A stretch of DNA of 64,000 nucleotides, taken from contig CM031556.1 of assembly GCA_018466975.1 (NCBI GenBank), positions 2,232,001 to 2,296,000 on the forward strand, given 5' to 3'. Made by a program: the position numbers and the translations under genes. This DNA comes from Sparassis latifolia. Its lineage: Eukaryota > Basidiomycota > Agaricomycetes > Polyporales > Sparassidaceae. Below are positions 32,631 through 51,299 of the stretch, in pieces (within the stretch, counting starts at the first letter, position 1; each line of letters starts with the position of its first letter). Under the pieces are notes generated by a model. The model saw nothing but the letters and a program-made list of their open reading frames with translations, was not told where the DNA came from and made no database searches.

Positions 32631-32846
32631 TGACAGACGTGTAACATGTTTCAATATAAAACTCGCATAACTAACGCAATACTCTAGATATTGAGCTTGG
32701 CAAGCGGAGCAATCCAAGGCCAAGGCCAACAATAAGGCGATGAAAGCCAAGGCCAAAGCTGCCAAGGCTGCGCATGCCAGAGCTCGTATTTATGGCGAAG
32801 CTTATGAGCTAGACTTCGCATGCACTGGAGACCAGGAAGAAGTTGA

Positions 32847-33487
32847 TGTTACGCGGCAGCGAAACACGAGCGTCTAGTCGAGTCGTCACGAGACAAGGTC
32901 TTAGTCTAAGACACAAGTCCGTTCAAGTGACACTTCTGGCGATGTCCTCGCACTGAAGGTCGATCGGAGTTCGTTCTTATGACTCGTAGTAGCTGTCTGC
33001 TACTGACGGTCGATTTCAGTCAAAGGCAAGTGAAAAGCTGGTTTAATGGTAACCAGGTCGAGATGGGGATCCAGCTCGACAAGGTCGTCTACTTATACAA
33101 AAGGTATCCGCAGTACTACGCAGTAATGCAGGATCGTTCATTGGCTAGATAAGGTGAAACGATGTCTAAGCAGGGTAACAACGAGGAAGTAATATGTATG
33201 GGAAAGCTGAGTAAGGTCGTGAGAGATAATCAGTACTAATGGGGATAACGAGTCGTGTATCAGAACGAGGTAAAGATGAGGCATACATGCACGTCTTGCA
33301 TGTGCGATAAGAAGAAGGTCCGGAGTTGGATCTGGTGTAACCCTAGACTAGGGGTTCTGGACATCTGGATAAAGAATCGGAGGTTGCGCTCCGATGAGTC
33401 ACGTGTTGGATCACGTGGTCTGGTAACGTAAAGGGAACAAGGAAAAGAAAAAGAAAAGACGCGCCACAAGTGAGGAGCGTTGTAACA
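32847..33487. mobile_element. 641-bp solo LTR inserted in the left LTR of the gypsy element
   Basis: Begins TGTTACGCGG and ends TTGTAACA, so the ends TGTTAC/GTAACA are a perfect inverted repeat. It is flanked by the 5-bp duplication GTTGA (32842-32846 and 33488-33492). The right LTR of the gypsy element preserves the empty site, gaagttgatgctgaagg, with a single GTTGA. No internal coding region remains, as expected after recombination between two LTRs. It differs from the other two LTR families in the window except for the shared TGTTAC start. Confidence 0.9.
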
Positions 33488-33883
33488 GTTGATGCTGAAG
33501 GATTCAGAGGGAAGGGAATATCGCGGGTTTAGGATTGACGAGGAATTTTCTTTGTACTCGCTGTCACACTTGCTCAACCTCTCCACTCACACACGTCCAA
33601 GTATTATACTCAAATATCGATCACTGCTTGTTTGCACTATTACTCTGTCTGTTTTTAGTCACTGAAGTGCTTGGTCATCTTTGCTGACTAATGTCTGACA
33701 CTTAGAAGGACAATAGCGAGGTAGGTTTCTATTGTCTTTATTATTTTTATTATCCCCCACTCTCTTTTGTTTTATCCAGAGTCATTTCTTATTGTTATGA
33801 CTCAGACTTCTATTATCACATTTTCTATTGTTATTTCTATTGAAGGCGCTTTTCTATTATTTAGATTTTCCCACCTTCTTTAG

Positions 33884-33890
33884 TATATAA
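33884..33890 (+). promoter_or_regulatory. TATA box in the left gypsy LTR
   Basis: TATATAA in a pyrimidine-rich context; the same motif is at 46051-46057 in the right LTR. Likely sets the start of the retrotransposon transcript. Confidence 0.55.
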
Positions 33891-34299
33891 ACCCTGAAAG
33901 TCCACTTGGACTTCCAGAGGAAAATTGTTGCTCTTACGTTACAGAGCATTCTTCTCACCTCAGTAGTCGGTATATACTCAAGTTCATACTTACCTGAATA
34001 CAGTGTTATTCAGGCATAGCATTATAGGCATCAAGGAAGTCACAACTCGGTCATCTGTTAATCGGCCATCTGTCAACTCAGTCACTTATTACTCGGTCAT
34101 TCTCTCTGTCTTATTATAAGACAGTCTTTCCCTCTTACTCACACACACACTCTCACACTTGATTACTACCAGGTAACCAAGCGATTACTACAACGAATAC
34201 ACTGAGGAATATTTCCCGACTTTGTTCAAGTCCGGTGACCTCAGGAGGATTTTGTTTTGGTTTGTGTTTTATCCAAGACACCATTCTCGTCTGTCAAAC

Positions 34300-34384: not shown

Positions 34385-36898
34385 TTGCCCAATGTGCCAT
34401 CATCACAATCACCTACACCCACCTCAGGATTATCAAGTACCAGTATATCATCCCTGTCTGGTAACTCCTCAAATAATCTCACCTCCTCCATTTCCAATCC
34501 AGGTTCTACCAGTTCCAGTAACCCCTTATCAGTCAGTTTATCAGCCTCAGCCTCAGTATCAGCACCAGTACCCACCACGTCCACAGCGACCTCAGCGATA
34601 CCAGCAGCCACAGCGTCCAATCCATCATCGTCAGCACCCACAGCCACAGCGGTCATACAATCCACCACCACCTCGTCCACTAACCCCACTTCAGTTTCCA
34701 CCACCACCCTATTAACCAGTTCTTCCACCATGTCTAAGACTCGCTCAGTTCATGATATGCCTGTGCGTGGAGGAAAACAAGCTCCCAGGACTTTTAAAGG
34801 TCAGTCATCCCAAGTTAAGGACTTTCTGGAAGACTATGATGCCTTACTGTCCTTTAATCAGGTAACTGATAATGGATTAAAGTGTAAAACAATTCGCCGG
34901 TATTGTAGTTGAGCAGTGCGAGAGGTAATAGAAACTCTCTCTGACTACAAGACTCCTAACTGGGATAATCTCAAGGCAGAAATTTTGAAGATTTATGATT
35001 CAGAAAGGAATGAAAGACGGTTCAAGCGTACTGACCTTAAGGATTTTTGTTGTACAGCACGTCATTCCTCTATTCACTCACTTTCTACAGTACGTTCCTA
35101 CTATCGTGGATTTCAGCATATTGCTGGATGGCTAAAGGAGAAGAATATGATAGATGAAGACACTTATAACAAGGCATTTTGGAAAGGGTTACCTAGGACC
35201 CTTAGGCCAAGAATTGAATCACGTGTACTGCGAATTAACCCTGCCCATGATTTAACAAAGCCCTTTACTGTTGCAAACATGTTAAAATCTTTGGAGGACA
35301 TGTTTCGCCGTGATAGATTTGATGCCGATGAATCTGAGTCAGATTCTGACCATGATCAAGACTAATCTGATTCTGAGGATGGTACAGACTCTGATTCAGA
35401 TTCTGCTGAGTCGGAAAATAGTGACGATGAATTTTCTAGATACAAGAAGAGTTCCAAGAAACAGCCAAAGAAGACTTCAAGGTCTGAAGATAAATCTGGA
35501 AAAATCAAGAGGAAGAAGAAGCGCAAGATGGAGTCAGGCCATAAGGCGCATGTGCGCCTGCATGCATTACAAGATGAGGAAACAGCAGCGGAAGAATTTG
35601 ATGAAGTAGAAACAATTATTAGGAAACTTCAGACACTGTCATTGGATGATCCTAACTACTCTACTCTGTTTTACAGGGCATACAAGTTGGATAAGGATAT
35701 TGTACAAATTGTACAATGTCCTAGGAGGCCGGGAGAATCCACTTCATCACCCATTGTGCATTCAGGAGGACCCCCTGCAACAATGGCAGACAATAGACCA
35801 TTGTCGCGTGGAGAAATGACCTGTTATGGTTGCGGAAAGAAAGGGCACTCCATGAATTATTGTCCAGAAATTATTGACCTTTTGAATAAAGGGACAATAA
35901 AATGTGACATAAATGGCAAGTTAACAATGCCAGATGGGTCTCCTATTCGCAGAGGAAGGGATGAGCCTATTGTCTCAGCCTTCCATAAAACCCAGCTTGC
36001 GCAGTCAAACTTTATCTCATTTACTGCGGAAACCATGGCTTGCATTTCTGACACTGAATCTGACATTCTTGTTATGCCTGCTGAGTGCTCTTCCAAGTCC
36101 ACCAAGGGAGCACGCAAGGAGCGCTTTGAAGGCGTGTTCCCTCCTGCCAAGCCTAGTTGGGCTCGGAGACTTGATGACAAAGCTGACAAAGCCAAAGCAG
36201 ATAAGCCTAAAGTGGACAAACCCCCGGAACCCCGCCCAATTATTATTCAGCCCCCTCAGTTTGATCCCGAAGATGATGATGTTATTATGGAAGATGAAAC
36301 CCCGGAGAAGCTGAAGAAGTCTCGTAAGTCATCATCAGTTCCTACGAAAATCCCAGCTAATAAGGAGGCAGAGCCCGAAAAATCGGAGAAAGCGCGGAAA
36401 TACCTTCCCACCCAATCCACTCTTTCGGGTCAGGTTCAGCCTGCGACAGTACTCAATAAAATATTGAGTACTCCTATTACAATTTTGGTAGGCGAGGTAA
36501 TTGGATCCTCAAGAGAGGTTTCTAATTATTTATCGGAAATTATTAAGTACAAACGGGCACCCGCGGAGCCCGACAATAATATGGTGGCAAGTACTATTAT
36601 TATGCGGAATCGGCGCGCGCTTATTCAATTTTCTATTGATTGCGACGGGCGCCAGATCGAGGCCATTGTCGACACAGGTTCAATGTTAAACATCGTACAC
36701 TCGCACATATGGAAAGACAAGATTCCATGACCTCTCAGCCGCAGCTACCGAATTACCATGAAGGACACAAACAGCGGCGAAGGAGATCTCCTCGGCTTAG
36801 TCCAGCAAGTCCCGCTGCAGTGCGGCGCGGTCACCACTTGGGCGAATCTCTACGTCGCTGACCACGTTCCCTTCGACCTTCTCCTCGGACGGTCGTGG
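34385..36898 (+). pseudogene. Gag and aspartic protease ORF of the gypsy element, with three in-frame stops
   Basis: One frame (ATG at 34385 after a Ser/Thr-rich leader, or at 34730, MSKTRSVHDMPVRGGKQAP) runs to about 36898. It is interrupted by TGA at 34910, TAA at 35363 and TGA at 36728. Gag features: SYYRGFQHIAGWLKEKNMID; a capsid-like helix-rich part; an acidic Ser/Asp stretch; a Lys-rich stretch; and the zinc knuckle CYGCGKKGHSMNYC (C-x2-C-x4-H-x4-C). Near the end is the retropepsin active site IVDTGSMLNIV and, past the third stop, HVPFDLLLGRSWQ. A one-base shift near 36898 moves the frame so that VTIDERPDGTYLVFKN follows. Two of the stops look like CGA to TGA changes. Coding strand equals LTR orientation. 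Confidence 0.88.
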
Positions 36899-39800
36899 CA
36901 GGTGACAACCAGGTCACCATCGACGAGCGACCCGACGGAACTTATCTCGTTTTCAAGAACCCACACTCCTCCAACGGCGAGCACGAGCTTCTCGCGACTC
37001 CGGAGCACCTCGACTTCGAACCTCATTCGCACATTGTAGAATCCAACTCGGCAGACTCTTTTCTCATTTCGGCACTGGAACCTAGTACTCATATTATCGA
37101 TACCCCGATTCCACCCACGGACACTCTCACGCCCGCTGACTGGAACCCCGAGCCCACGCCCTCGAATCTTGACGAACACTATCGCGCAGGAATCCGTTGC
37201 GGCGACGCCTATCCGTGCTCATTCGGATATTGGCAGGGCAGCCACTACGAGGACTGGTACATACCCAACGCGACACTTTCGGGCAGAGTATTTGGACCTC
37301 CCGGAATTTATTCTAGCCGTGGACACCCCTTCGAGCGCGAAGGGCACTCTTTTGTTCGATTTTTCCTGCACGACTACACTAACCGTGATTGGCCGGGCGC
37401 GATGTCAGTCAATGATGTCGACCTCCCGAATCTCAAATATCCTGTCGCGCAAAGAAGACCCCCCCGTCACAGATATAGGTCTAATAGCACCCCCGCCTTG
37501 GAGAATACCCACGGAAGCCACGTTTATCGACGACCCCGTGCCACGCAGGATTGGTCTTGACAGTACCGCGAACCCCTTCCCCTTTGACACGACGTTCAAC
37601 GTGACGAAATTGGAGCCTTCATCGAGCTCGGTTAGGATTTTCGAAGCAATTATTAACTCTCGCGCACCAAATGCAGCGCGCACTGACATATTTCATTCCC
37701 TCCAGGCCCCAAGGACATGCGATCCCCGTCGTCTCCTGAAGACGGTCGTACAAGATGATCGTATCATTACAATGGCCACGGATTCCTCTGTCCCCGTCGC
37801 TCCTCGACGTTGGGACAGTCTCCCATCGAAATTGTGTCATCACACTGACTCAGCACCCTGCGAATGCAACAACGGCACCAGCGCACACGATGCACATCGC
37901 TCCCCCTCTATGCCGATGTTTTTGTGCTCTTCAGAGTACTCTCTTTCTGTTCCTAATGCTTCTCAGTTTTATCTTGGGGAATTTGAACTTAGTGGCACCC
38001 TTCTCAATGATGCCAACGGCACACTCGGGATGTCTCGAACTTCCACAGGTATCCTGGCTCATTCCTCGACTCCTCTCGACAATTCGGCACTTACGATGAA
38101 CCCCGACGGCCTCCAGGATGCAAACGGCGACAACGCCAAGCGCGCAGAGTACGCGCAACGTCCTGGGCCAGTCTATTCGCACAACGTGTTCCCCTCTGAA
38201 CCTGACGCCCTCGGTGTTGCTATGGAGACCCGACAGGAGACACCAGCGGACAGGGCAAGCAAGATGTGCCCAGCCCCAAATTTTTATTAGGAAATATATT
38301 AACTATTCGATGTCGTACAGTAGATACAGGACGCGTGGACACAACCGTGGTCCTGGATAGTTATGGGATTGCGCCGCACGTCGAGCACGCAATTCTCGCA
38401 GACAACGACAACACGGTGGTAGGTGGCCCATGCGATTTTACAGACATCACCACGATGCACACACAGGAGGATCTCCAACGCCGCAGCACAGCACGCGAAT
38501 ACCAGGCCACGGAGAATGTGAATGCACACGGCTTTGAGCGCGCAGAGATCGCGCAGAGTCCATGGCCCGCGTCTTCGTACGACACGCTCCCTTGCGAGTC
38601 GAACGTCCCCACTGATGCCATGGAGACTCACGGTCGAGACAACGGCAGACAGGACAAGCAAGATACAGGCCGTGTTGATGCAGCCGCGATTGTCGAAGGT
38701 TACGGAATCCCGCCGCTCGTAAGTGACGAAAGGGGAGACGATTCACGAGATCTCGAGGAAGAGGGAATCGGAAGACGGGGGTCAACAAATGGGTTCTCCG
38801 GATCGTCGAAGTCGATAGGTGGTCGGTATGCGAAATTGTCGGGAAGTGGACACGTGAACGCTGGGGACCCTGGAGTCGGCGGCTGGGAAGCTGCCAAGGT
38901 AAGCTCCTCTTGGAGCGATCTGGAAGCAAGGCGACTGCTCCGCTGTGTCGCACGAAGACCCCTTGCGGTGGGCTCCAGTTGACGTAATTGTTGTTCCATC
39001 GCAAGCCGGAAAGGAGGAGTACGAGCGGAATCAAGTCCGCGTGGGGTCTGAGATGCAACGAGGGAGAAGAGTCTATTCCAGAGGTATGAGGTGGGTGGCC
39101 CGAAAGCGTAGCTAGGAAAATCTCTGTAGTCGCAATGATCGCTGGACGATGCGTCGGACTAAAATCGCACTGCCCTAAGGAGAACGCTAAAATGCAGAAA
39201 TGCAAGACTGCCCAGAAAACGCACAAAACGCAAGACTGCCCAAAGACGCACTCACTGGATGGGATGGGAATGTGAAACGAGTCCTTTCGCAAGCGTACCT
39301 TCCGGGACGGTGGGTTCTCCTCCCCCCCCCTTTTTCCCTGCCATCATACTTAACTAGTCCTGACCTTTCCTGCCCTCCCAATACTGCCCACATCTGCTTA
39401 ACAATCGCTCCGCTGAATCACTGCCCATCACGCCATATCTCGCAATCCCGTCCCCTCATGCTCCTACTCATTCCGAGGGACCTTCCGTCACTGAACCCGC
39501 CCGAGTGCCTAATAAGGACCCATCCGTCTCGGAGGCATCTCCCATCCTAAACTCAATCTCCCATCCATGGACGCCAGCGTCATCCTTCACAAATACACCC
39601 TCGCAGAAGCTCTTCTTCGCATTGAGATCTTTACCGAGCCCTTCGATCCGATCCTGTGGAAAGCATGGGCAGTCCGGATGCACGTCCTGCTGGTGAGGCC
39701 CCCATGAGCATATGATCCTTCGCTGTCTGACCCTCACATGTCCCTGAGGTCCTTATGGTCCAAGCCCAGTCTGAAGCGGCCAGCGTGGGGATCATCCTAC

Positions 39801-41315
39801 CCCTTCCGCGCGATATCCCTGTCCTGGCCCAGGTGGAAATACACCTGGCAACAGCTCGCACTGTAGAAGGTGGTCGTCGGATGATACCCCAAATTGCGAA
39901 TCACCTTCCTGCAGTCATTCCTCATGGTTTGACTGCCCACATTCTGTATGACGACCCTGCTGTCCGCGAGGACTTTGGTTTAGGCCACCCGCCGGATGGT
40001 CTCCCTGACATTGGTGCACGGTCGTCCTGTCCCTGTTTTCCTGGAGTCGTGTTCCTCAGCTTTTTATCGCCATCAGGAACCTTGCGCCTTCGGGTTAAGA
40101 CATTGCGCAACGCGGCCCGCGAACTGTACGATGTCATGCGTGGAATCACTGGTAGACGCGAGCTGGCGGATGGTACTTTGAGACAGTTGCGGATCACAGT
40201 CGAGGAATTGGAAGTAGCGTTCAGGCTCGTAGCGTTCCCTCCTCCGATAACCAGCTTCCAACTGATGTTGGACTAGGGGTCGGTTGTGTAGCACCCTGTA
40301 GTATCTCCAAAATGTGAGACCGCTTCCCGGATGTGATTCCCACCTCAGCGCGCTTTGCGTCCCTTCAGCGCGGCTCCACAGAATATGAGCACACTTATGG
40401 ACTCCATCGACACACACGTACTTACGGTTGCCCCGGATACGCACGCGCAAGAGAACGATGCACTTCACAGTGCGCGAGGCACACAGCAGGACCAGGAGGA
40501 CGCGATCATCGCCGGTGCTGAGCACGCGATGATTGCGCAGCGTGCACTCCCCGTGCTACATCTGGACACAGCGCTGAATGACGTACTCACAAGTATTCCC
40601 CTTAGTTTCATCGATGACTCAGTCTACAGTATTGAGAATACGCGCGTCGACCGCGCGGACGGCCCCCCTTCATTGATCAACATGCGCCCAACGGGGTTCG
40701 TTTTTCTCTCACATCTGGACCTCGCGGATATCTCGGTGACCCCACCCCTATCACGTTCCCCATCCCCCGAGTACACGCCATCATCACCCATCTACATTCC
40801 CTCATCACCGGTCCTCTCGTCGCCCCCGTCGCCTCCGTCATCCGCGTGCGCATGCACGCACGAGGCCGACTGCCATGCGATGCGAGCATGCAATCACCCA
40901 CTTCTGCTTCCTCGTTCCACTCTCCCTGTCACCCATGACCCCGACACTCGTATCTGCAGGCCAACGCACCCGCCCAGCTCCCATGCGCGCTGCACATCTC
41001 CAGACTCGTACGATGGCGACGACGACTTACCAGGTTTAGTAAGTGTCTCGCGCGGTAATGACAGTAGTGACAGTGAATCGGACATGGACCTCGAGGATGA
41101 CACGGACGACGACGATAACCATTTACAGTCGGAATGCGAGTGCGAGGATTTGATGCGCGAGCGCGTCGAGGAAATTCTCATCGAGGCCATGCGCGACGTC
41201 ACTAAAGAAGTCGTTGAATATGTAAGTCCGACTTTTTCAGCGCATTCCTTTCGCGGCTAATTCTAGCAGATTCGGAACACCATGTTTTAGGGAGCAGGAC
41301 CCCCCATCAAGCACT
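36899..41315 (+). pseudogene. Long linker region between protease and reverse transcriptase
   Basis: About 4.4 kb of acidic, Ser/Pro/Thr-rich coding-like sequence, in several frames because of shifts (frame change near 37430, others later). Recognisable text: LLATPEHLDFEPHSHIVES, PFPFDTTFNVTKLEPSS, then imperfect repeats containing RAE-AQ, SEP or CES, and AMET followed by GR or TR (near 38130-38260 and 38530-38650). The phrase TGRVD...YGI(A/P)P also occurs twice (38325-38370 and 38665-38715). A Pro/Ser-rich then Asp-rich part lies at 40740-41130. The stretch 38720-40290 does not continue the same text and has open frames on both strands, so it may be a further insertion. No domain recognised. 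Confidence 0.55.
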
Positions 41316-44300
41316 ATGCACCATTTTCCTTTATCTTTAGCTACTCGCGGTCCTTCATCGCTAAGTATACCCAGTCCTATGTCTGATCTGTTATCAACCC
41401 CTACTCATTCTCTGCGTATGTCACCTCTAAATTCCTTCAACAGGAATTCTATACCTATGGTCTCTTATGTAATCATGTCATGTACCACTACCTTGGAAAC
41501 CCCCAATATACCTTCTGCTGGTCAGCCCTATTTAAATAGTGTCCCATTGGAATTCGGAGCATACAAACCAGTCGATAGAAAGGTAAAGCCAGTACAAGGA
41601 GTATTTCCAGAGGATGCGCGTGTACTACGGCGCTTCCCTGAGAATCCATTGGACTCACTTACAGAGTTATCAAAAGTTCCACCCGAATTTATTCCTACCA
41701 CAAAACTTACTGTGGAGAGAGTCGAACTAATGGACATTAATAAAGATGGATTTTTGGCCAGAGGAAGAAAAGCTCTTTTTACATATTCTCAAGCTTAACG
41801 AAAAAACACTCGCTTTTGGTGAAGAAGACAGAGGTACATTTCGGGAAGATTATTTTACTCCCTATATTATTCCAGTCACTCCGCATGTACTGTGGGCCTA
41901 TCCTAACATCCCTATCCCCCCAGGAATTAAGGAAAAAGTAGTCGCACTTCTTCGAGATAAGATTGCAGCCGGCGTTTATAAGCCTAGTCAATCATCTTAT
42001 CAATCAAGATGGTTCTGCATAATCAAGAAGAGCGGTAAACTGCGGATCGTCCATGATCTACAACCACTCAATCGGGTAACTATTCGAGATGCAGGTGTCC
42101 CGCCCATTCTGGATGACTTTGTAGAACCCTTTGCAGGACACGCCTGCTACACAGTCTTTGATTTATTCTCTGGATTTGATGCATGCAAGGTTGATCCTAA
42201 AAGTCGTGACCTTACATCATTCCTAACCCCACTCGGTTTATTACGACTCACTTGTATGCCTCAAGGCTTCACTAACTCTCCTTCAGAATTCCAGAATTGT
42301 ATGGTCTTTATTTTACAAGACGAGATCCCCCATGTCACGAACATTTTTATTGATGATTTACCCATCCATGGACCAAAAACTATGTATATACAAGAAAATG
42401 GAGAGCCAGAGACATTACTAGAAAACCCAGGAATTAGGCGATTTATATGGGAACATGCAGTTGACGTACATAGGATTATGCATCGTATAGAACATGCAGG
42501 CGCTACCTTCTCCGCTTTTAAGACCCAATTATGTAAACCCCATGCAGTTATAGTTGGACAGACATGCACCCCAGAAGGACGACTTCCAGAAAATTCAAAA
42601 GTAAATAAAATTCTTACCTGGCCAGTTTTGAAGACTGCAAAGGATGTGCGGAGATTTTTAGGATTATGTGGTACAGTGCGCATTTGGATAAAGAACTACT
42701 CCAAAATTGCATGACCACTAACTGAAATAACACGGAAGGATGCTGAATTTGTATGGGATGGTAGGCGACAAGAAGCATTTGATTGCTTGAAGGATCTTAT
42801 TACATCTGCACCTGCCTTACACCCTATTGATTATTCATCGGACCGACCTGTCTACATATCCATAGACTCTAGTGTCATCACAGTCGGTTTTATCTTGTCG
42901 CAGGATGATGAACAAGGCAGACGGAGACCAGCTCGCTATGGTTCTCTACCTTTTAGTGAGCGCAAGTCCAGATATAGTCAGCCCAAGTTGGAGCTATACG
43001 AATGCTATAGAGCCATGCGACACTGGAGACTTTATTTAGCAGGCATCAAGAACTTGATTCTGGAAGTTGATGCCAAGTACATCAAAGACATGCTGAATAA
43101 TCCGGATCTTCAGCCGAATGCCGCAATTAATCGGTGGATCCAGGGCATTTTGCTATTTACCTTTGAATTGCGACATGTTCCTGCTGATAAGCATCATGAA
43201 CCTGATGCTCTCTCACATCGTGAACCAACAGAAGAAGAATTGGCAGAAGTTCCTGAGTCAGATGATTGGTTGGATGAGGTAGCACTTCTATCACTGTATC
43301 TTAATCACGTGCCCAAGCCGGATCAAACCCTGGTTCACCAGTTACCCTCATCGCTAGCAGTGAATTCCAAGCATGAGGAGACATTGCGAAATATCAGACA
43401 TTTCCTTCAGACTCTACAGACACCAGACTTCTCTAACACTCAAGCCAAGCGAAGATTTATTAGACGTGCAGGACAGTTCTTTATGAAAGGCGAATCTATG
43501 TTCAAGCGAAGACGTGATCACACTCCTTTATTGGTTATATTGGACAAGGATCATAGGATCTCTATACTAACACATGCACATGAAGAACTAGGTCATAGGG
43601 GAGTTTATGGAGTATTCTATCATCTTCGCAACCGTTTCTTCTGGCCCCATTTATTTCAAGATATAAAACACCATATCAGTACATGCCACCAATGCCAATT
43701 ATGGAGTACAAAAAGGGTAGAGGAATCTCCCACTATACGCACACCAGCAACTATATTTTCCAAGATTTACCTTGATGTTATGTTTATGCCACCAGCTCAA
43801 GGATATCGCTATATTGTTGCTGCGAGAGATGATTTGACACATGCAGCAGAAGAACGGGCCTTAAAGAAAGCCAATTCCAAGGAGTTAGCGAGGTTCTTCT
43901 GGGAGGAAATCATATGCCGCTATGGACATATCACAGAGGTTGTAACGGATAATGGTTCAGAAGTGGCAGGAACCTTTGAGAAGCTTTTGCAAAGATATGG
44001 CATTCCACAAATCAGAATTTCTCCCTACAACAAGCATGCAAATGGACTAGTCGAGCAAGGTCATTTTGTAATATGCGAGGGAATACTCAAAGATGTGAAG
44101 AAGGATCTCAAGTCCTGGCCAAACAAAGTACACCATGCATTCTTTGCAGACAGAGTTACCACTAGGCGGTCAACAGGATTTAGCCCCTTTTATTTGCTGC
44201 ATGGCGTAGACCTGGTGTTACCATTCGATCTCACAGAGGTGACCTTTATGATAAGCGGATACACATCTGGACTTTCATCATCTGACCTTCTTGCGCTGCG

Positions 44301-44733
44301 CATCAGACAATTAGAAAAGCGGCCAGAGGATATTGCACGGGCAGCAGCTGCAATCAAGCGGTCTAGATTGCACTCGAAGCATCAGTTCGAAAAGTGGTTC
44401 AAACATAGACTCTGGCGGAAAGTATTGAAGCCAGGAGACTTAGTATTGATGCGTAACACAAGGCGAGATGCCGGTCTGACAGACAAGTATAGTCAAAGGT
44501 ATTTTGGACCATATCAGATTCGACGAAAGCGACGTGGAGAATCATATGTGTTGCAGGAATTAGACAGAACAGTTCTTAGATGCGCAGTTGCAGCATTCCG
44601 ATTACTCCCATATCTGCCACATGTACCATCCAATCTGGATCTGGAAGATCTAGATTCAGATGGATCCAGCGATCCTGATCACCTAGATATATCCTCAAAT
44701 TCAGATTCCTCTGATGACTGGTTGCCAACGTAA
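41316..44733 (+). pseudogene. Pol ORF: reverse transcriptase, RNase H and integrase
   Basis: Seen in order: pre-RT region GVFPEDARVLRRFPENPLDS; a one-base shift near 41755; FREDYFTPYIIPVTPH; RT blocks SRWFCIIKKSGKLRIVHDLQ, YTVFDLFSGFDACKVD and RLTCMPQGFTNSPSEFQNCM; and the catalytic box FIDDLPIHG in place of the common YxDD. Thumb and connection follow, then an in-frame TGA at 42712 inside KIA-PLTEIT. The RNase H region has PVYISIDSSVITVGFILSQ and LYECYRAMRHWRLYL. Integrase has the zinc part HEELGHRGVYGVFYH to CHQCQLW, then the acidic triad in KIYLDVMFMPP, EVVTDNGSEVAG and NGLVEQGHF. The end is acidic (SSDDWLPT) and there is no chromodomain. The family is Ty3/gypsy by order and motifs. Confidence 0.92.
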
Positions 44734-44860
44734 ACATGGTCACGTGCTTGCACATCATTTTTGGTCTTTGCCGCATATTCCCTCAGTTGAAAAGCAACCT
44801 CTACACGTCTCATTCCTCACCTTGCCATTGTGCTTCTAACTGCCTGCTATCTTTGTCATT

Positions 44861-45699
44861 ATGTCGCGCTACTCTCAGCCTGCTCTCCTGTTCCCCCCTT
44901 ATGAACCTCCTACCTATCTCACCACCATCCCTTCTGATCCGCACATCATTGCTGGAGACTTCGATTGCCCACGTCCCCAGATTGAGCTCCAGAATCTCTT
45001 TGTTGCACTCATCCCTGATGAAAAACCCTTTTATCTCGAGTATAGCAAGGCGACTCACTACCTACTTTCTCCAGAGCCTGCTCTCTCCAACGATGCGTAC
45101 TTTGACTTGAACAACTGGGCAGTCGTACACCCGGTCATTGGACCGTTCTTTTTGGGAACAATCGACAAGATTTTGGGTGAAGGAAAGGTTCGGATTGGAG
45201 GGTGGATGATGTCGAAGATGGTCAGAAAGGAGGAGTATAGAATGATGGTCTTTGAGCCCGTCACGGTGACTATTGACGTTACCTACCTCAACATCCCCTT
45301 CCTTGAACGCTTTGCCTGTCGTCGGTCACCACGCGTCGGTCACTACTTGATGGCAAAACTCCAAGTGTGAGTTCCTTTCTTACTCTCTAGTTTCTCCTCG
45401 ATAGCCAGCAACGGGGACGTTGCATTCTAAAGTGTGGGGCAGGTGACAGACGTGTAACATGTTTCAATATAAAACTCGCATAACTAACGCAATACTCTAG
45501 ATATCGAGCTTGGCAAGCGGAGCAATCCAAGGCCAAGGCCAACAATAAGGCGATGAAAGCCAAGGCCAAAGCTGCCAAGGCTGCACGTACCAGAGCTCGT
45601 ATTTATGGCGAAGCTTATGAGCTAGACTTCGCATGCACTGGAGACCAGGAAGAAGTTGATGCTGAAGGATTTAGAGGGAAGGGAATATCGCGGGTTTAG
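44861..45699 (+). CDS. Intact third ORF of the gypsy element, spliced into the 3' LTR
   Basis: Unrecognised product. Exon 1 (44861-45366) reads MSRYSQPALLFPPYEPPTYL... and contains IELQNLFVALIPDEKPFYLE, WAVVHPVIGPFFLGTIDKIL and VRIGGWMMSKMVRKEEYRM. A donor gtgagt at 45367 and an acceptor ctctag at 45500, with the branch-point match ctaac 15 bases before it, define a 134-nt intron covering the purine tract and the LTR boundary. Exon 2 (45501-45699) continues in frame with YRAWQAEQSKAKANNKAMK, an Ala/Lys-rich basic stretch, then YGEAYELDFACTGDQEEVD and a stop. The protein is about 235 residues with a basic tail and no membrane segment. Unlike Gag-Pol it has no stop or shift. The same LTR exon in the left LTR has TGA in place of CGA near its start. 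Confidence 0.6.
45428..45443 (+). other. Polypurine tract
   Basis: Purine-rich aaagtgtggggcagg directly before the right LTR, the expected primer site for plus-strand synthesis. Confidence 0.65.
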
Positions 45700-46195
45700 G
45701 ATTGACGAGGAATTTTCTTTGTACTCGCTGTCACACTTGCTCAACCTCTCCACTCACACACGTCCAAGTATTATACTCAAATATCGATCACTGCTTGTTT
45801 GCACTATTACTCTGTCTGTTTTTAGTCACTGAAGTGCTTGGTCATCTTTGCTGACTAATGTCTGACACTTAGAAGGACAATAGCGAGGTAGGTTTCTATT
45901 GTCTTTATTATTTTTATTATCCCCCACTCTCTTTTGTTTTATCCAGAGTCATTTCTTATTGTTATGACTCAGACTTCTATTATCACATTTTCTATTGTTA
46001 TTTCTATTGAAGGCGCTTTTCTATTATTTAGATTTTCCCACCTTCTTTAGTATATAAACCCTGAAAGTCCACTTGGACTTCCAGAGGAAAATTGTTGCTC
46101 TTACGTTACAGAGCATTCTTCTCACCTCAGTAGTCGGTATATACTCAAGTTCATACTTACCTGAATACAGTGTTATTCAGGCATAGCATTATAGG
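45444..46195 (+). repeat. Right LTR of the gypsy element, first part
   Basis: Starts TGACAGACG and matches the left LTR, including the empty site of the solo LTR at about 45652-45668. It is interrupted at ATAGG (46191-46195) by the second LTR element; the rest is at 51032-51299. A TATATAA box is at 46051-46057. Confidence 0.92.
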
Positions 46196-47014
46196 TGTTA
46201 CAAAGCTCCTCTCTGAGGAACACGCGGACGACTTCCGCCTCTACCTTTACCGATCACGTGACAATGACATCACAGAGCCTAGACTGACCATGTGACAATG
46301 ACGTCACTGACCACATGACCATGATGTCATCATGGTCATCGCCCTTATCTATCCGGCACAGATCTACCTGATCATCTGATGATATGTGCCTTGTGCTCAA
46401 GGCATGTTTACCTCATGTGCGAGATCCAGACCTAGGACGCACTTCCTATCACACACACGACAAAGGCATGTTTGCCTCACCTTTGCCTTACCTTTATGAT
46501 ACAGATACCGAACCTTATGGGCATGACCCTAGACCCTGATACATGCGCTAGATGCACGACGACCTCGCTGCTGCCTTGTCTTTGCAGCACGACCTATTCC
46601 CCATATGGACAGATTGTCTCTCACGCAGAGTCATGACTGACTCAGCATTCTCACGACCGTGGGACAGGTATACGAACCCTGTGCCCTTGTATTGATACCG
46701 ATGGACCAATCGTAGTTCTAGTATTACAGGTAGACAGACGCCTGTACTTGTATATAAGACCAACAGGACAAGCTGGAGTCCCCATCTTGTCCTGGTTACA
46801 CATCAACCAGTTTTACCATCTACATCTGTGCGACAGATCGACCTTGGTCCGCAGACAGCAGCCAAGCGTTCATAAGACTACTCCACTGGGCCGACCTCTG
46901 GTCATCACTATGACTGGAGGTCGGACCCCTCATGATTGACTTGAGCCCTTGCGAAGGCCTAGTCACTGACGACGACGAACCGGATGTATGGTGGCACAAC
47001 TGGCCCCCGTGACA
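46196..47014 (+). repeat. 5' LTR of the non-autonomous element
   Basis: 819 bp, ends TGTTAC/GTGACA. It holds TATATAAG at 46751-46757, a likely promoter. Short open frames in it (71 and 63 codons) recur in the 3' LTR but look non-coding. Confidence 0.92.
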
Positions 47015-47542
47015 TTAGGACAAGATAATTATTTACTGCTCAACCTCCTATGGTTTAGAGCTGATCTGATGACCCTGACTTCGACCAGTTCGCAGACATC
47101 GACTGTGTCCTTTGACCTTGATCTTGTCCCGTAACATTAGGACAAGATCCTTATTCTCTGGCACAACCTCCTATGGTTTAGTGCAGAACTTGACGACCCC
47201 GACCTCGACCGGTTTACAGACAGTGACCATGTCATGATATATTCCTTGACCGACCAAGGCGACGGTTACCTCAGGACAACACTACCCGACCTCGACTTGT
47301 CCATGTTCGCAGACAGCGTAACACTAGGACACCTGTGATAACAGAGATGGAGATACCGTGATTTGACACTCCATTCTCTTGACCTCGACCTTGTCCATTA
47401 ACATTAGGACACCTGTGACGACAGAGATGGAGATACCGCGATTGACACTCCATACTCTCGATATCCAACATTGGAACGACGAAGAAAACCCTTGTCTGGT
47501 CATTCCTAGGTGAGACCAGATTTTCGAAAGACAATTGATTGG

Positions 47543-47628
47543 CACCTTGTCCGAGACGAACTCTCAAGAGTTTACCCTTCATTGGGCGACTCTCAGGGGT
47601 CGAATCCCCTCATGCGAGGAAAGCTACG
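47543..47628 (+). other. tRNA-like sequence with possible A and B boxes
   Basis: ttgtccgagacg resembles an A box. It is followed by an anticodon-arm-like hairpin around ctcaag and, about 50 bases later, by ggggtcgaatcccc, a T-arm with a near-consensus B box. The acceptor stem does not close (3' side catgcgag has no partner), so it is not a functional tRNA as it stands. Confidence 0.35.
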
Positions 47629-49283
47629 ACATGTGTAATAATCAAAGACATGTACGAGCCGCATGTGACTGCGAATTGGAAAGGTTTGGCCACCGTAGAA
47701 TTAGTACTGATTCTATGGACCGTGATGAACTGAGGATGGTGTGCAGCCTTTGACAAAGGACTTAAGTCGCACACTTGATGATCATGGCTGACAACACCGA
47801 GTGCGGCGAGATACCCACGGTGCAGATTGATCCCGGGAACGGCAACCCGTATAAACCGTAGACTCTTAATTGAGTCCGATCTGATGACCATTTGATGATT
47901 GTAATCCCTGAATGGGAGCTCGGACTGAGCAAGTGGACACTCGCTCTCCACTATAAACAAACGATAGATCTTGGCTGAGAACACCCTGCATGGCGAGTTA
48001 CCTGGGGTGCAGAAAGATTGACAACTCGATGCCATTACGAGTTGATGACCATGGAATGTTTGAAGATACCGCGAGTTGACACTTCAAAACCATTCCCTGT
48101 CGAAGAGGCTCTCGACGTTAAAGAAACCGACAATCCGAAGAAGATCCTGATGTAACAAAAGGATCTGAACGATGACCGTCGATCACAGCTCTCGACGATT
48201 AAAAAAAAAACTGAACCTGGATGAACCTTGAATGACATAGTAAAAGGTTCTGACAGAAGACGGATCCTGGCTCTCCGTATAAACCAATGATCTATGCTGA
48301 ACCTAGGCTGAAGGTTTGACGAGGCGACGATTAGCCTGATGATTGAACTTAACAAGAGATTACATCACCGAAGAACGACTTGGAGTTAACAGTACACGAC
48401 ACTCCAATCCCCGATAACGACACCTGATATTAGGAAACCCCTAATGGTCCTTTGTTGACCACCACGATGACGACTCAAGCATGATCAGACAGACATGACT
48501 CATTCGATGATGTCTGGAAGTCCCAGACGGTCCTTTGTTGACCACCACGATGACGACACCCGATGCTAGATGCCTAAATAGGTCTAGCAACCCTCAACGA
48601 TCAGACAGATCTCGATGGGCAAAACTACTATGAACGACAGCCTTCGATATGGCACTTTTGATGACATGTGTGGGGTAGTTCCCCATGGATAGAAAGGATA
48701 CTGGGTCACGGCCGATCCTTGGATTTGATGTAGACTGTTGTCTCATCATCTGGAAGAATAAACTTGACAAACAGATGAAATTCGATATACGACACAGCGA
48801 TGAATAGGGCATCCATGGAATATGGATGGAGGTAGTCGATTTCATTCGACACCAACACACGACAAGACCCGACATGAAATATTCGATGAAGTATCATGCT
48901 AGGCCGGGGTAGTTCAAACCTAGGCCGGGGTACTTTAATGATGAAGACATGAAACTGGACATGAAACGTGAATGGGAGCTATCGCTTACCATTGGATATT
49001 TGATCTGAACCTTTGCTGAGAACACCTAGTAGGGCGAGATACCCGGGGTGCAGAAAGGTTATCGGAAGGACAAACGACCTTGATGAAAGCCGAAAGGCAG
49101 GATTATGGCATTCATGAAATGTGAAGGGAGATAACTGACAAAGTGCGGTATCAACCCAAGATAAGGCCACGATTATCCCGATGATTAGAAACATCGAAGA
49201 CATGAAAACTGAATGAGAGCTATCGCTCACCAGAAGACGATTAACCATGCTGGCATTGATGATGACCAGCCAACCACGATACA

Positions 49284-49445
49284 TGTCCGCAATGACTTAA
49301 AACTAGAAGACGACATTTGTCTGTAACGACTTAAAACTAGACGATACTTGTCCGCAATGACTTGAAACTAGAAGACGATACTTGTCCGCAATGACTTAAA
49401 ACTAGAAGACGATATTTGTCCGCAATGACTCGAAACTAGAAGACC
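49284..49445. repeat. Tandem array, five copies of a 34-bp unit
   Basis: Unit tgtccgcaatgacttaaaac and following tagaagacgata, at 49284, 49319, 49349, 49383 and 49417. The spacing is 30-35 bp. Copies differ at a few positions. Confidence 0.85.
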
Positions 49446-50207
49446 CTTGCTGCCCACCCTCTTTTTCCCTTTACGATTTGTTACCTGTTTTTATCGGTTT
49501 CAGATCCAGGGTATCTGGTTTTTTTGAATGGGAGCTGATAGGGGATAGTAGGCAAGGATGCATATCCGAGCCAAAGGAATGAGCCCGAGTGCCCGGGTGA
49601 TGAGGAACAAGTGGAATCGAGGAGTGACGAGTGGAATCGAGGAACGACAAGAGTAATCGAGGACGAGGAACCCTCCCACAAGGGCAAATTTTTTCCCCCC
49701 CTCCTCCCTTCCACCACACTCTCTTTCCATCTTGCAAATTTTTGAAGACATCGCTACACTATGAGCCCTCCTGATTTTTAGGCCGGGGTAGTAGTAGGGA
49801 AGAATGGGCAACGCGAGTTAACCATTCACTGTGCGAAAGCACAAAGAAACAAGACTAATGAAAGACGACAGGCAACACGAGTTGACCGGTCACTGTGCGA
49901 AAGCACAAAGAAACAAGACTAATGGAAGACGATGAACATAGCTGAATAGCTTATGAGAAGAAGACGAACAGAAGACTTGCAGTTGGAGCGAGCAATCCTA
50001 AAGGGATGCGAGCGACAAGCAAAACGAAGTTTGCGAAGCTGAATTAACACCCAGGTCAATTTTTTCATTTTCCGCCTCTGATTTACCCAGAATCATGTGA
50101 TGACATGACACGATGAACAACGATACATGGAATTTCTCCATTCCATTTCCCGACCGACTTTCTTGACGACTTCAATCCAGGGAATTGAAGACCTGAATGG
50201 GAGCTGA

Positions 50208-51026
50208 TGTTACAAAGCTCCTTTCTGAGGAACACGCGGACGACTTCCGCCTCTACCTTTACCGATCACGTGACAATGACATCACAGAGCCTAGACTGAC
50301 CATGTGACAATGACGTCACTGACCACATGACCATGATGTCATCATGGTCATCGCCCTTATCTATCCGGCACAGATCTACCTGATCATCTGATGATATGTG
50401 CCTTGTGCTCAAGGCATGTTTACCTCATGTGCGAGATCCAGACCTAGGACGCACTTCCTATCACACACACGACAAAGGCATGTTTGCCTCACCTTTGCCT
50501 TACCTTTATGATACAGATACCGAACCTTATGGGCATGACCCTAGACCCTGATACATGCGCTAGATGCACGACGACCTCGCTGCTGCCTTGTCTTTGCAGC
50601 ACGACCTATTCCCCATATGGACAGATTGTCTCTCACGCAGAGTCATGACTGACTCAGCATTCTCACGACCGTGGGACAGGTATACGAACCCTGTGCCCTT
50701 GTATTGATACCGATGGACCAATCGTAGTTCTAGTATTACAGGTAGACAGACGCCTGTACTTGTATATAAGACCAACAGGACAAGCTGGAGTCCCCATCTT
50801 GTCCTGGTTACACATCAACCAGTTTTACCATCTACATCTGTGCGACAGATCGACCTTGGTCCGCAGACAGCAGCCAAGCGTTCATAAGACTACTCCACTG
50901 GGCCGACCTCTGGTCATCACTATGACTGGAGGTCAGACCCCTCATGATTGACTTGAGCCCTTGCGAAGGCCTAGTCACTGACGACGACGAACCGGATGTA
51001 TGGTGGCACAACTGGCCCCCGTGACA
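50208..51026 (+). repeat. 3' LTR of the non-autonomous element
   Basis: 819 bp, same ends and nearly identical to the 5' LTR, with TATATAAG at 50763-50769. It is followed by the ATAGG duplication. Confidence 0.92.
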
Positions 51027-51031
51027 ATAGG

Positions 51032-51299
51032 CATCAAGGAAGTCACAACTCGGTCATCTGTCAATCGGTCATCTATCAACTCAGTCACTTATTACTCGGT
51101 CATTCTCTCTGTCTTATTATAAGACAGTCTTTCCCTCTTACTCACACACACACTCTCACACTTGATTACTACCAGGTAACCAAGCGATTACTACAACGAA
51201 TACACTGAGGAATATTTCCCGACTTTGTTCAAGTCCAGTGACCTCAGGAGGATTTTGTTTTGGTTTGTGTTTTATCCAAGACACCATTCTCGTCTGTCA
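51032..51299 (+). repeat. Right LTR of the gypsy element, second part
   Basis: Resumes with catcaaggaagtcacaactc exactly where the left LTR continues after ATAGG, and ends CGTCTGTCA. Together with 45444-46195 it restores a 1,020-bp LTR. Confidence 0.92.

Follow-up and report, generated by a model that had tools for sequence, protein, structure and literature searches.

Organization of the Element and of Its LTRs

The window (i.e., the whole stretch of 64,000 nucleotides that was analyzed) harbors on its forward strand a Ty3/gypsy LTR retrotransposon, whose LTR pair flanks the RVT_1, RT_RNaseH, Integrase_H2C2, and rve domains, in this order. The LTRs are about 1.02 kb long (TGACAGACG...CGTCTGTCA) and start at positions 32631 and 45444, respectively, and each of them is interrupted. 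The 5' LTR (32631–34296) embeds, at about 32847–33487, a 641-bp insert that begins with TGTTAC, ends with GTAACA, has GTTGA at both flanks, and looks like the solo LTR of another element. The 3' LTR (first 752 bp at 45444–46195, remainder at about 51032–51299) is split after position 752, on the 3' side of a TATA-like sequence (TATATAAA, at 46051), by a 4.8-kb insert (46196–51026, no strand assigned) with a 5-bp target duplication, ATAGG, at 46191–46195 and 51027–51031. The two LTRs differ at five of the first 752 positions and share 98.5% identity across a further 274 aligned bases; these values suggest that the insertion is fairly young.

Between the LTRs, an open stretch 5' of the reverse transcriptase (35366–36730) matches DUF4100 (PF13352, E 5e-11). 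The approximately 4.4 kb separating this region from the reverse transcriptase (36862–41260) contain several long open frames, on both strands. The reverse transcriptase (RVT_1, 41731–42714) terminates at a stop codon of the pol frame (42712–42714), placed between the reverse transcriptase and RNase H. The RNase H and integrase region (42715–44733; RT_RNaseH_2, Integrase_H2C2, and rve) follows, with 672 open codons and then a TAA. A further ORF, hereafter ORF3, is located between the integrase and the 3' LTR. An earlier reading of this DNA, made from its letters only (the sequence-only reading), had described ORF3 as the only uninterrupted coding part of the element; this turned out to be overstated, since the RNase H–integrase region is also open in the window copy.

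Structure of ORF3 and Its Putative Intron

ORF3 starts with an ATG at 44861 and, in its unspliced form, consists of 169 codons followed by a TGA (45368–45370), which overlaps a GTGAGT donor. The sequence-only reading had paired this donor with a branch point and an acceptor inside the 3' LTR, and both are indeed there, CTAAC at 45484–45488 and TCTAG at 45496–45500. The proposed intron (45367–45500, 134 nt) covers a stem-loop (GCAACG-GGGA-CGTTGC, 45408–45423), the PPT candidate, i.e., the purine-rich stretch directly 5' of the 3' LTR (45429–45443), and the LTR itself up to its nucleotide 57. Exon 1 (44861–45366) would consist of 168 codons and two nucleotides, while exon 2 (45501–45699), in the U3 of the 3' LTR, would contribute one nucleotide, 65 codons, and a TAG (45697–45699); the last codon of exon 1, left in phase 2, would be completed by that nucleotide, so that the frame is continuous and gains the 65 codons that had been predicted. 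The spliced product would be 234 residues long. The first half of exon 2 is basic and Ala/Lys-rich, with 11 K/R among its first 35 residues.

The probability of such an extension arising by chance was estimated on first-order Markov sequences built from the tail, with a motif that was defined after the site had been seen: an in-phase extension with a donor, a branch point, and the first YAG occurred in 0.86% of 20,000 trials; the share fell to 0.035% for extensions of 60 codons or more. As for the 5' end of ORF3, a CAG at 44784–44786, placed after a pyrimidine-rich stretch, and the CAG-GTAAC motifs of the U5 and the leader are only candidates.

Conservation of ORF3 in the Copies of Family A

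The copies of family A, i.e., the family of the window element, were all taken from this genome. ORF3 was found at eight places, with a DNA identity of 77–100%; another 14 matches correspond to LTR pieces, including the two halves into which the 5' LTR of the window element, together with its copy of exon 2, is divided by the 641-bp insert. The splice sites are kept in the sister copies, as would be expected from the sequence-only reading: the donor and the acceptor are present in all eight full copies, the former as GTRAGT (GTGAGT in seven copies, GTAAGT in L008, the most diverged one) and the latter as TCTAG in each of the 21 LTR rows; CTAAY was found in 19 rows out of the 20 covering that site.

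Exon 1 is open in five of the eight copies (L001–L004 and L006). Exon 2 is broken by premature stops or by one frameshift in 12 of the 21 rows; codon 2 is TGA in place of CGA, a CpG change, in seven rows, and codon 35 is TAA in L003 and L004. Both exons are open in two full copies out of eight, the window's and L002. Only one distinct indel (L071) was counted in exon 2 vs. six in the next 201 bases, in a comparison of L001 with 18 LTR rows, from which L008 and w5L, the row joined from the two parts of the 5' LTR, had been set aside; this difference was not tested statistically. Exon 2 is also more variable than the downstream LTR, with 75 variable columns out of 195 vs. 131 out of 491. Exon 2 also takes all five of the differences found between the first 752 bp of the two LTRs of the window element, and three of these are crowded into 5 nt, a clustering for which gene conversion or a mutational hot spot may be responsible.

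A Second Family with a Diverged ORF

In family B, the pol is 64–73% identical in the best-preserved copy (L031/L048, C7), with lower values in the decayed copies. This family harbors, after the integrase, a diverged ORF of its own, and its LTR begins with TGACACACAC; the comparison comprised six copies, either full or partial, together with 13 LTRs. Exon 1 is fully open in one of the six copies (L048). The putative donor is GTACGT or GTATGT in five copies and GTACAT in L049, with phase 2 like that of the window's, and the spliced product would be 232 residues long. The LTR frame stops at the same alignment position in 13 LTRs out of 13, with a premature TGA in six and one-base deletions in two of them.

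With respect to fungal acceptors, AAAG is less usual than CAG. The acceptor that fits both the phase and the frame under constraint (see below) is ATAAAG, which ends 30 nt into the LTR; the alternative CAG, 16 nt past it, would open an unconstrained frame. The choice between them is the main uncertainty in family B.

Selection on the Two Proposed Exons

Codon constraint was assessed by a permutation test in which alleles were shuffled among sites that agreed in base and CpG context; the P values are given without correction for the testing of several frames and regions, and near-duplicate copies are included in the allele counts. In an additional shared-allele test, near-duplicates were grouped and only the alleles common to independent insertions were used.

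In family A, exon 1 has 36 synonymous alleles vs. 28.8 expected (P 0.04, seven copies), and 20 vs. 12.9 (P 0.01) if the five closest copies are considered; no synonymous excess was found by the permutation test in the other two frames, and the shared-allele test gave P 0.064. The pairwise dN/dS, a measure suggested in the sequence-only reading, is 0.38 for exon 1; for exon 2 the value of 0.50 is not frame-specific, since the other two frames gave 0.58 and 0.47. The z values of these comparisons were not used because non-independent pairs had been treated as independent. According to the allele counts, exon 1 appears to be under modest, frame-specific purifying selection. Exon 2 of family A revealed 27 synonymous alleles vs. 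23.5 expected (P 0.17; 20 LTR rows, L008 left out) and 17 vs. 15.7 (P 0.37) when only shared alleles were considered, and the LTR downstream of it did not show a synonymous excess in any frame. The integrase (43363–44730) has 64 synonymous alleles vs. 49.0 expected (P 0.003, six copies); a seven-copy dN/dS of the same gene was dropped, the alignment having been spoilt by the rearranged copy L005.

In family B, exon 1 has 46 synonymous alleles vs. 36.1 expected in the four full-length copies (P 0.013) and 57 vs. 42.2 over its last 369 nt in six copies (P 0.001), with P 0.0015 in the shared-allele test. The LTR frame, corresponding to exon 2, has 30 vs. 22.9 (P 0.006, 13 LTRs; codon positions 21/17/31) and P 0.0155 with shared alleles, while no synonymous excess was found in the other two LTR frames.

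Relatives of ORF3

The exon 1 products of families A and B share 16% identity in a multiple alignment and 21% over the 58 best columns. Their end-to-end global alignment has a score of 28 vs. a shuffled mean of -30.5 (z 4.6), and none of 1000 shuffles reached 28; the comparison of their profiles is weak (hhalign P 0.014, the score being attained in 3 of 100 column shuffles). The exon 2 products have no detectable homology, 60% of the shuffles reaching their score. Set against a pol identity of 64–73%, and judging from these alignments, ORF3 is fast-evolving, which is common among accessory genes.

The sole protein relative found in a collection of 5.8 billion sequences is a hypothetical protein of S. 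crispa, SCP_0603010 (169 aa), which is identical to the translation of copy L003 and ends at the unspliced stop. This identity points to S. crispa, or a fungus very near to it, as the host of the element. It was the one match among the 14 candidates retrieved with exon 1 and the one among 844 retrieved with a four-row profile, and none of the 46 candidates retrieved with the family B ORF matched (E up to 1); these searches require shared five-residue words, so that distant relatives can be missed. Probing the PDB by sequence (E up to 10) did not retrieve any match to ORF3, nor did exon 1 match any Pfam family; sub-threshold Pfam matches of exon 2 (DUF930, E 0.01) were set aside as basic, low-complexity sequence. 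An AlphaFold model built from two sequences (mean pLDDT 42) gave a strand-rich hint, and its quality did not warrant a fold search.

Families C and D and the Stem-Loop Preceding the LTR

Two further families, C (L025) and D (L023), have a pol about 50–55% identical. The distance from the integrase stop to the LTR is about 52 nt in the former and about 126 nt in the latter, as read in one copy each, and the same spacing was found in three further copies of C and one of D by DNA matches running from the integrase end to the LTR. These families have no room for ORF3, which thus marks the branch of A and B among the families seen.

Among the four regions compared, conservation is highest in the stretch preceding the LTR (45401–45443), with 2 variable columns out of 43 vs. 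93 out of 506 in exon 1. The exact stem-loop GCAACG-GGGA-CGTTGC is present in three of the eight family A copies, and both varying columns are stem partners. Related hairpins precede the LTR of families C and D. In family B, a hairpin with a compensatory A-T for G-C exchange is present in the near-duplicate copies L050 and L051, and no full pairing was found in L048. The stem-loop GCAAC..GTTGC with ATT after it was observed in the window, L023, L025, L050, L051, L074, L075, L078, L080, and L082; the pattern occurs 0.05 times per mononucleotide-shuffled 64 kb (20 shuffles). Since the hairpin is shared by families C and D, which are devoid of ORF3, a connection with plus-strand priming or with the LTR end is more likely than one with ORF3.

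Alternative Explanations and the Preferred Reading

In principle, ORF3 might be a real gene of 169 codons ending at its own TGA, with the family A splice signals and the LTR frame being fortuitous and the LTR being kept as a promoter. The in-frame TGA at the donor, the annotation of the S. crispa relative as exactly the 169-residue product, and the absence of a codon signal in exon 2 of family A fit this scenario, which we nevertheless consider rather unlikely: the family B ORF continues past its donor, the LTR frame of that family is under constraint, phase and product length agree between the two families, an in-phase extension of 60 codons is rare by chance (0.035%), and exon 2 is poorer in distinct indels than the bases that follow it, even if this last difference was not tested statistically.

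The LTR frame might also be a separate short gene, expressed on a transcript of its own and not joined to exon 1, given that the U3 frame is open and has its own stop in the best copies of both families. No in-frame ATG, however, lies before the first 17 (family A) or 27 (family B) codons of the frame, a lack of early start codons that fits with splicing, and in family A a branch point–acceptor pair directly precedes the frame; such a gene seems very improbable. Slightly less credible still is the possibility that ORF3 represents a fragment of a host gene, captured and carried without function. While the failure to match Pfam or the PDB and the single S. crispa entry found as a protein relative could be read in this way, the fragment would hardly show a selection signal or have a homolog at the same site in family B. 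Moreover, all nine own-genome protein matches to ORF3 fall at the eight element places, so that no host gene source was found.

We therefore return to the third protein with an LTR-encoded exon proposed in the sequence-only reading, the two parts of which fared differently. Its exon 1 stands as a gene, being present in eight copies, showing more synonymous alleles than expected in its own frame alone, and having a diverged family B homolog at the same site; that ORF3 is a real gene is very likely. The coding exon in the LTR agrees with the kept splice sites, the few indels, and the constrained LTR frame of family B, and is at odds with the lack of frame-specific selection in exon 2 of family A, so that the checks proposed in the sequence-only reading give a mixed picture for this family; on these sequence comparisons, ORF3 probably splices into the LTR. 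Overall, we assign a probability of roughly 0.6 to the reading that the window harbors a Ty3/gypsy element with a spliced accessory gene, ORF3, that is placed after the integrase and before the 3' LTR and has its last exon in U3.

Proposed Mechanism

According to this preferred reading, the intron (45367–45500) would be spliced out and exon 1 joined to exon 2. With the TATA-like sequence (46051) on its 3' side, exon 2 falls in U3 and would be transcribed only from the 3' LTR; because the last exon is in the U3 of the 3' LTR, the intron takes in both the PPT candidate and the beginning of the LTR. The role of genome would fall to the unspliced RNA, the only form that retains the PPT and the U3 end. 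The spliced RNA, from which both are removed, would not be copyable into integrable DNA, if the rules of retroviral reverse transcription apply, and would serve as the ORF3 mRNA only, that is, as a dead-end message. The choice between genome and message would then be made by splicing itself.

ORF3, with its basic tail, might act as a nuclear or RNA-binding regulator of the element RNA, affecting either its export or the splicing balance. This role, modeled on MMTV Rem or on CERV of Cer1, is the weakest step of the proposal and is a tentative guess. It is likewise possible, if doubtful, that a fungal Ty3/gypsy clade independently evolved a Rem-like regulator with its last exon in U3, in which one intron both makes the mRNA and withdraws that RNA from the replicating pool. 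If ORF3 is spliced, a retrovirus-style layout (an accessory gene with a U3 exon) would exist in a fungal element, such layouts could thus arise more than once, and LTR annotations may conceal coding exons.

Comparison with Known Systems

Among the matches listed (titles and abstract openings; few subscription journals), no gypsy element of a fungus was described as having a coding exon within its LTR. In plants, the aORF or env-like ORFs of elements such as Bagy2 and Retand are extra sense ORFs placed after pol, some of which are spliced, according to passages of PMC7264820 and PMC11963269; they resemble ORF3 in their position between pol and the 3' LTR, and a term search of these two sources did not retrieve any aORF running into the LTR.

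A second term of comparison is CERV, encoded by the C. elegans LTR retrotransposon Cer1, which passages of PMC10309623 describe as a fast-evolving accessory protein made from a spliced RNA and needed for the export of the unspliced genomic RNA. CERV, likened to ORF3 by description, has five exons, the first three of which are in the gag frame, and 517 residues; no LTR exon is described in those passages.

MMTV and HIV-1 are animal retroviruses, and the first exon of MMTV rem lies within env, whereas no env was seen in the ORF3 element, where the first exon forms an ORF in its own right. ORF3 was not found to resemble the U3-encoded retroviral genes rem, sag, and nef in sequence. The likeness to MMTV rem/sag and to HIV-1 nef would consist of coding sequence in the U3 of the 3' LTR, where the frame is open in both element families, with codon constraint in B and no frame signal in A. 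According to passages of PMC12789967, the U3 of HIV-1 holds part of nef, the second exon of MMTV rem sits in the U3 of the 3' LTR, and Rem exports unspliced RNA. The layout of ORF3 is thus likened to those of Rem and CERV on paper, with no membership in either family implied, and MMTV Rem may be regarded as its closest analog.
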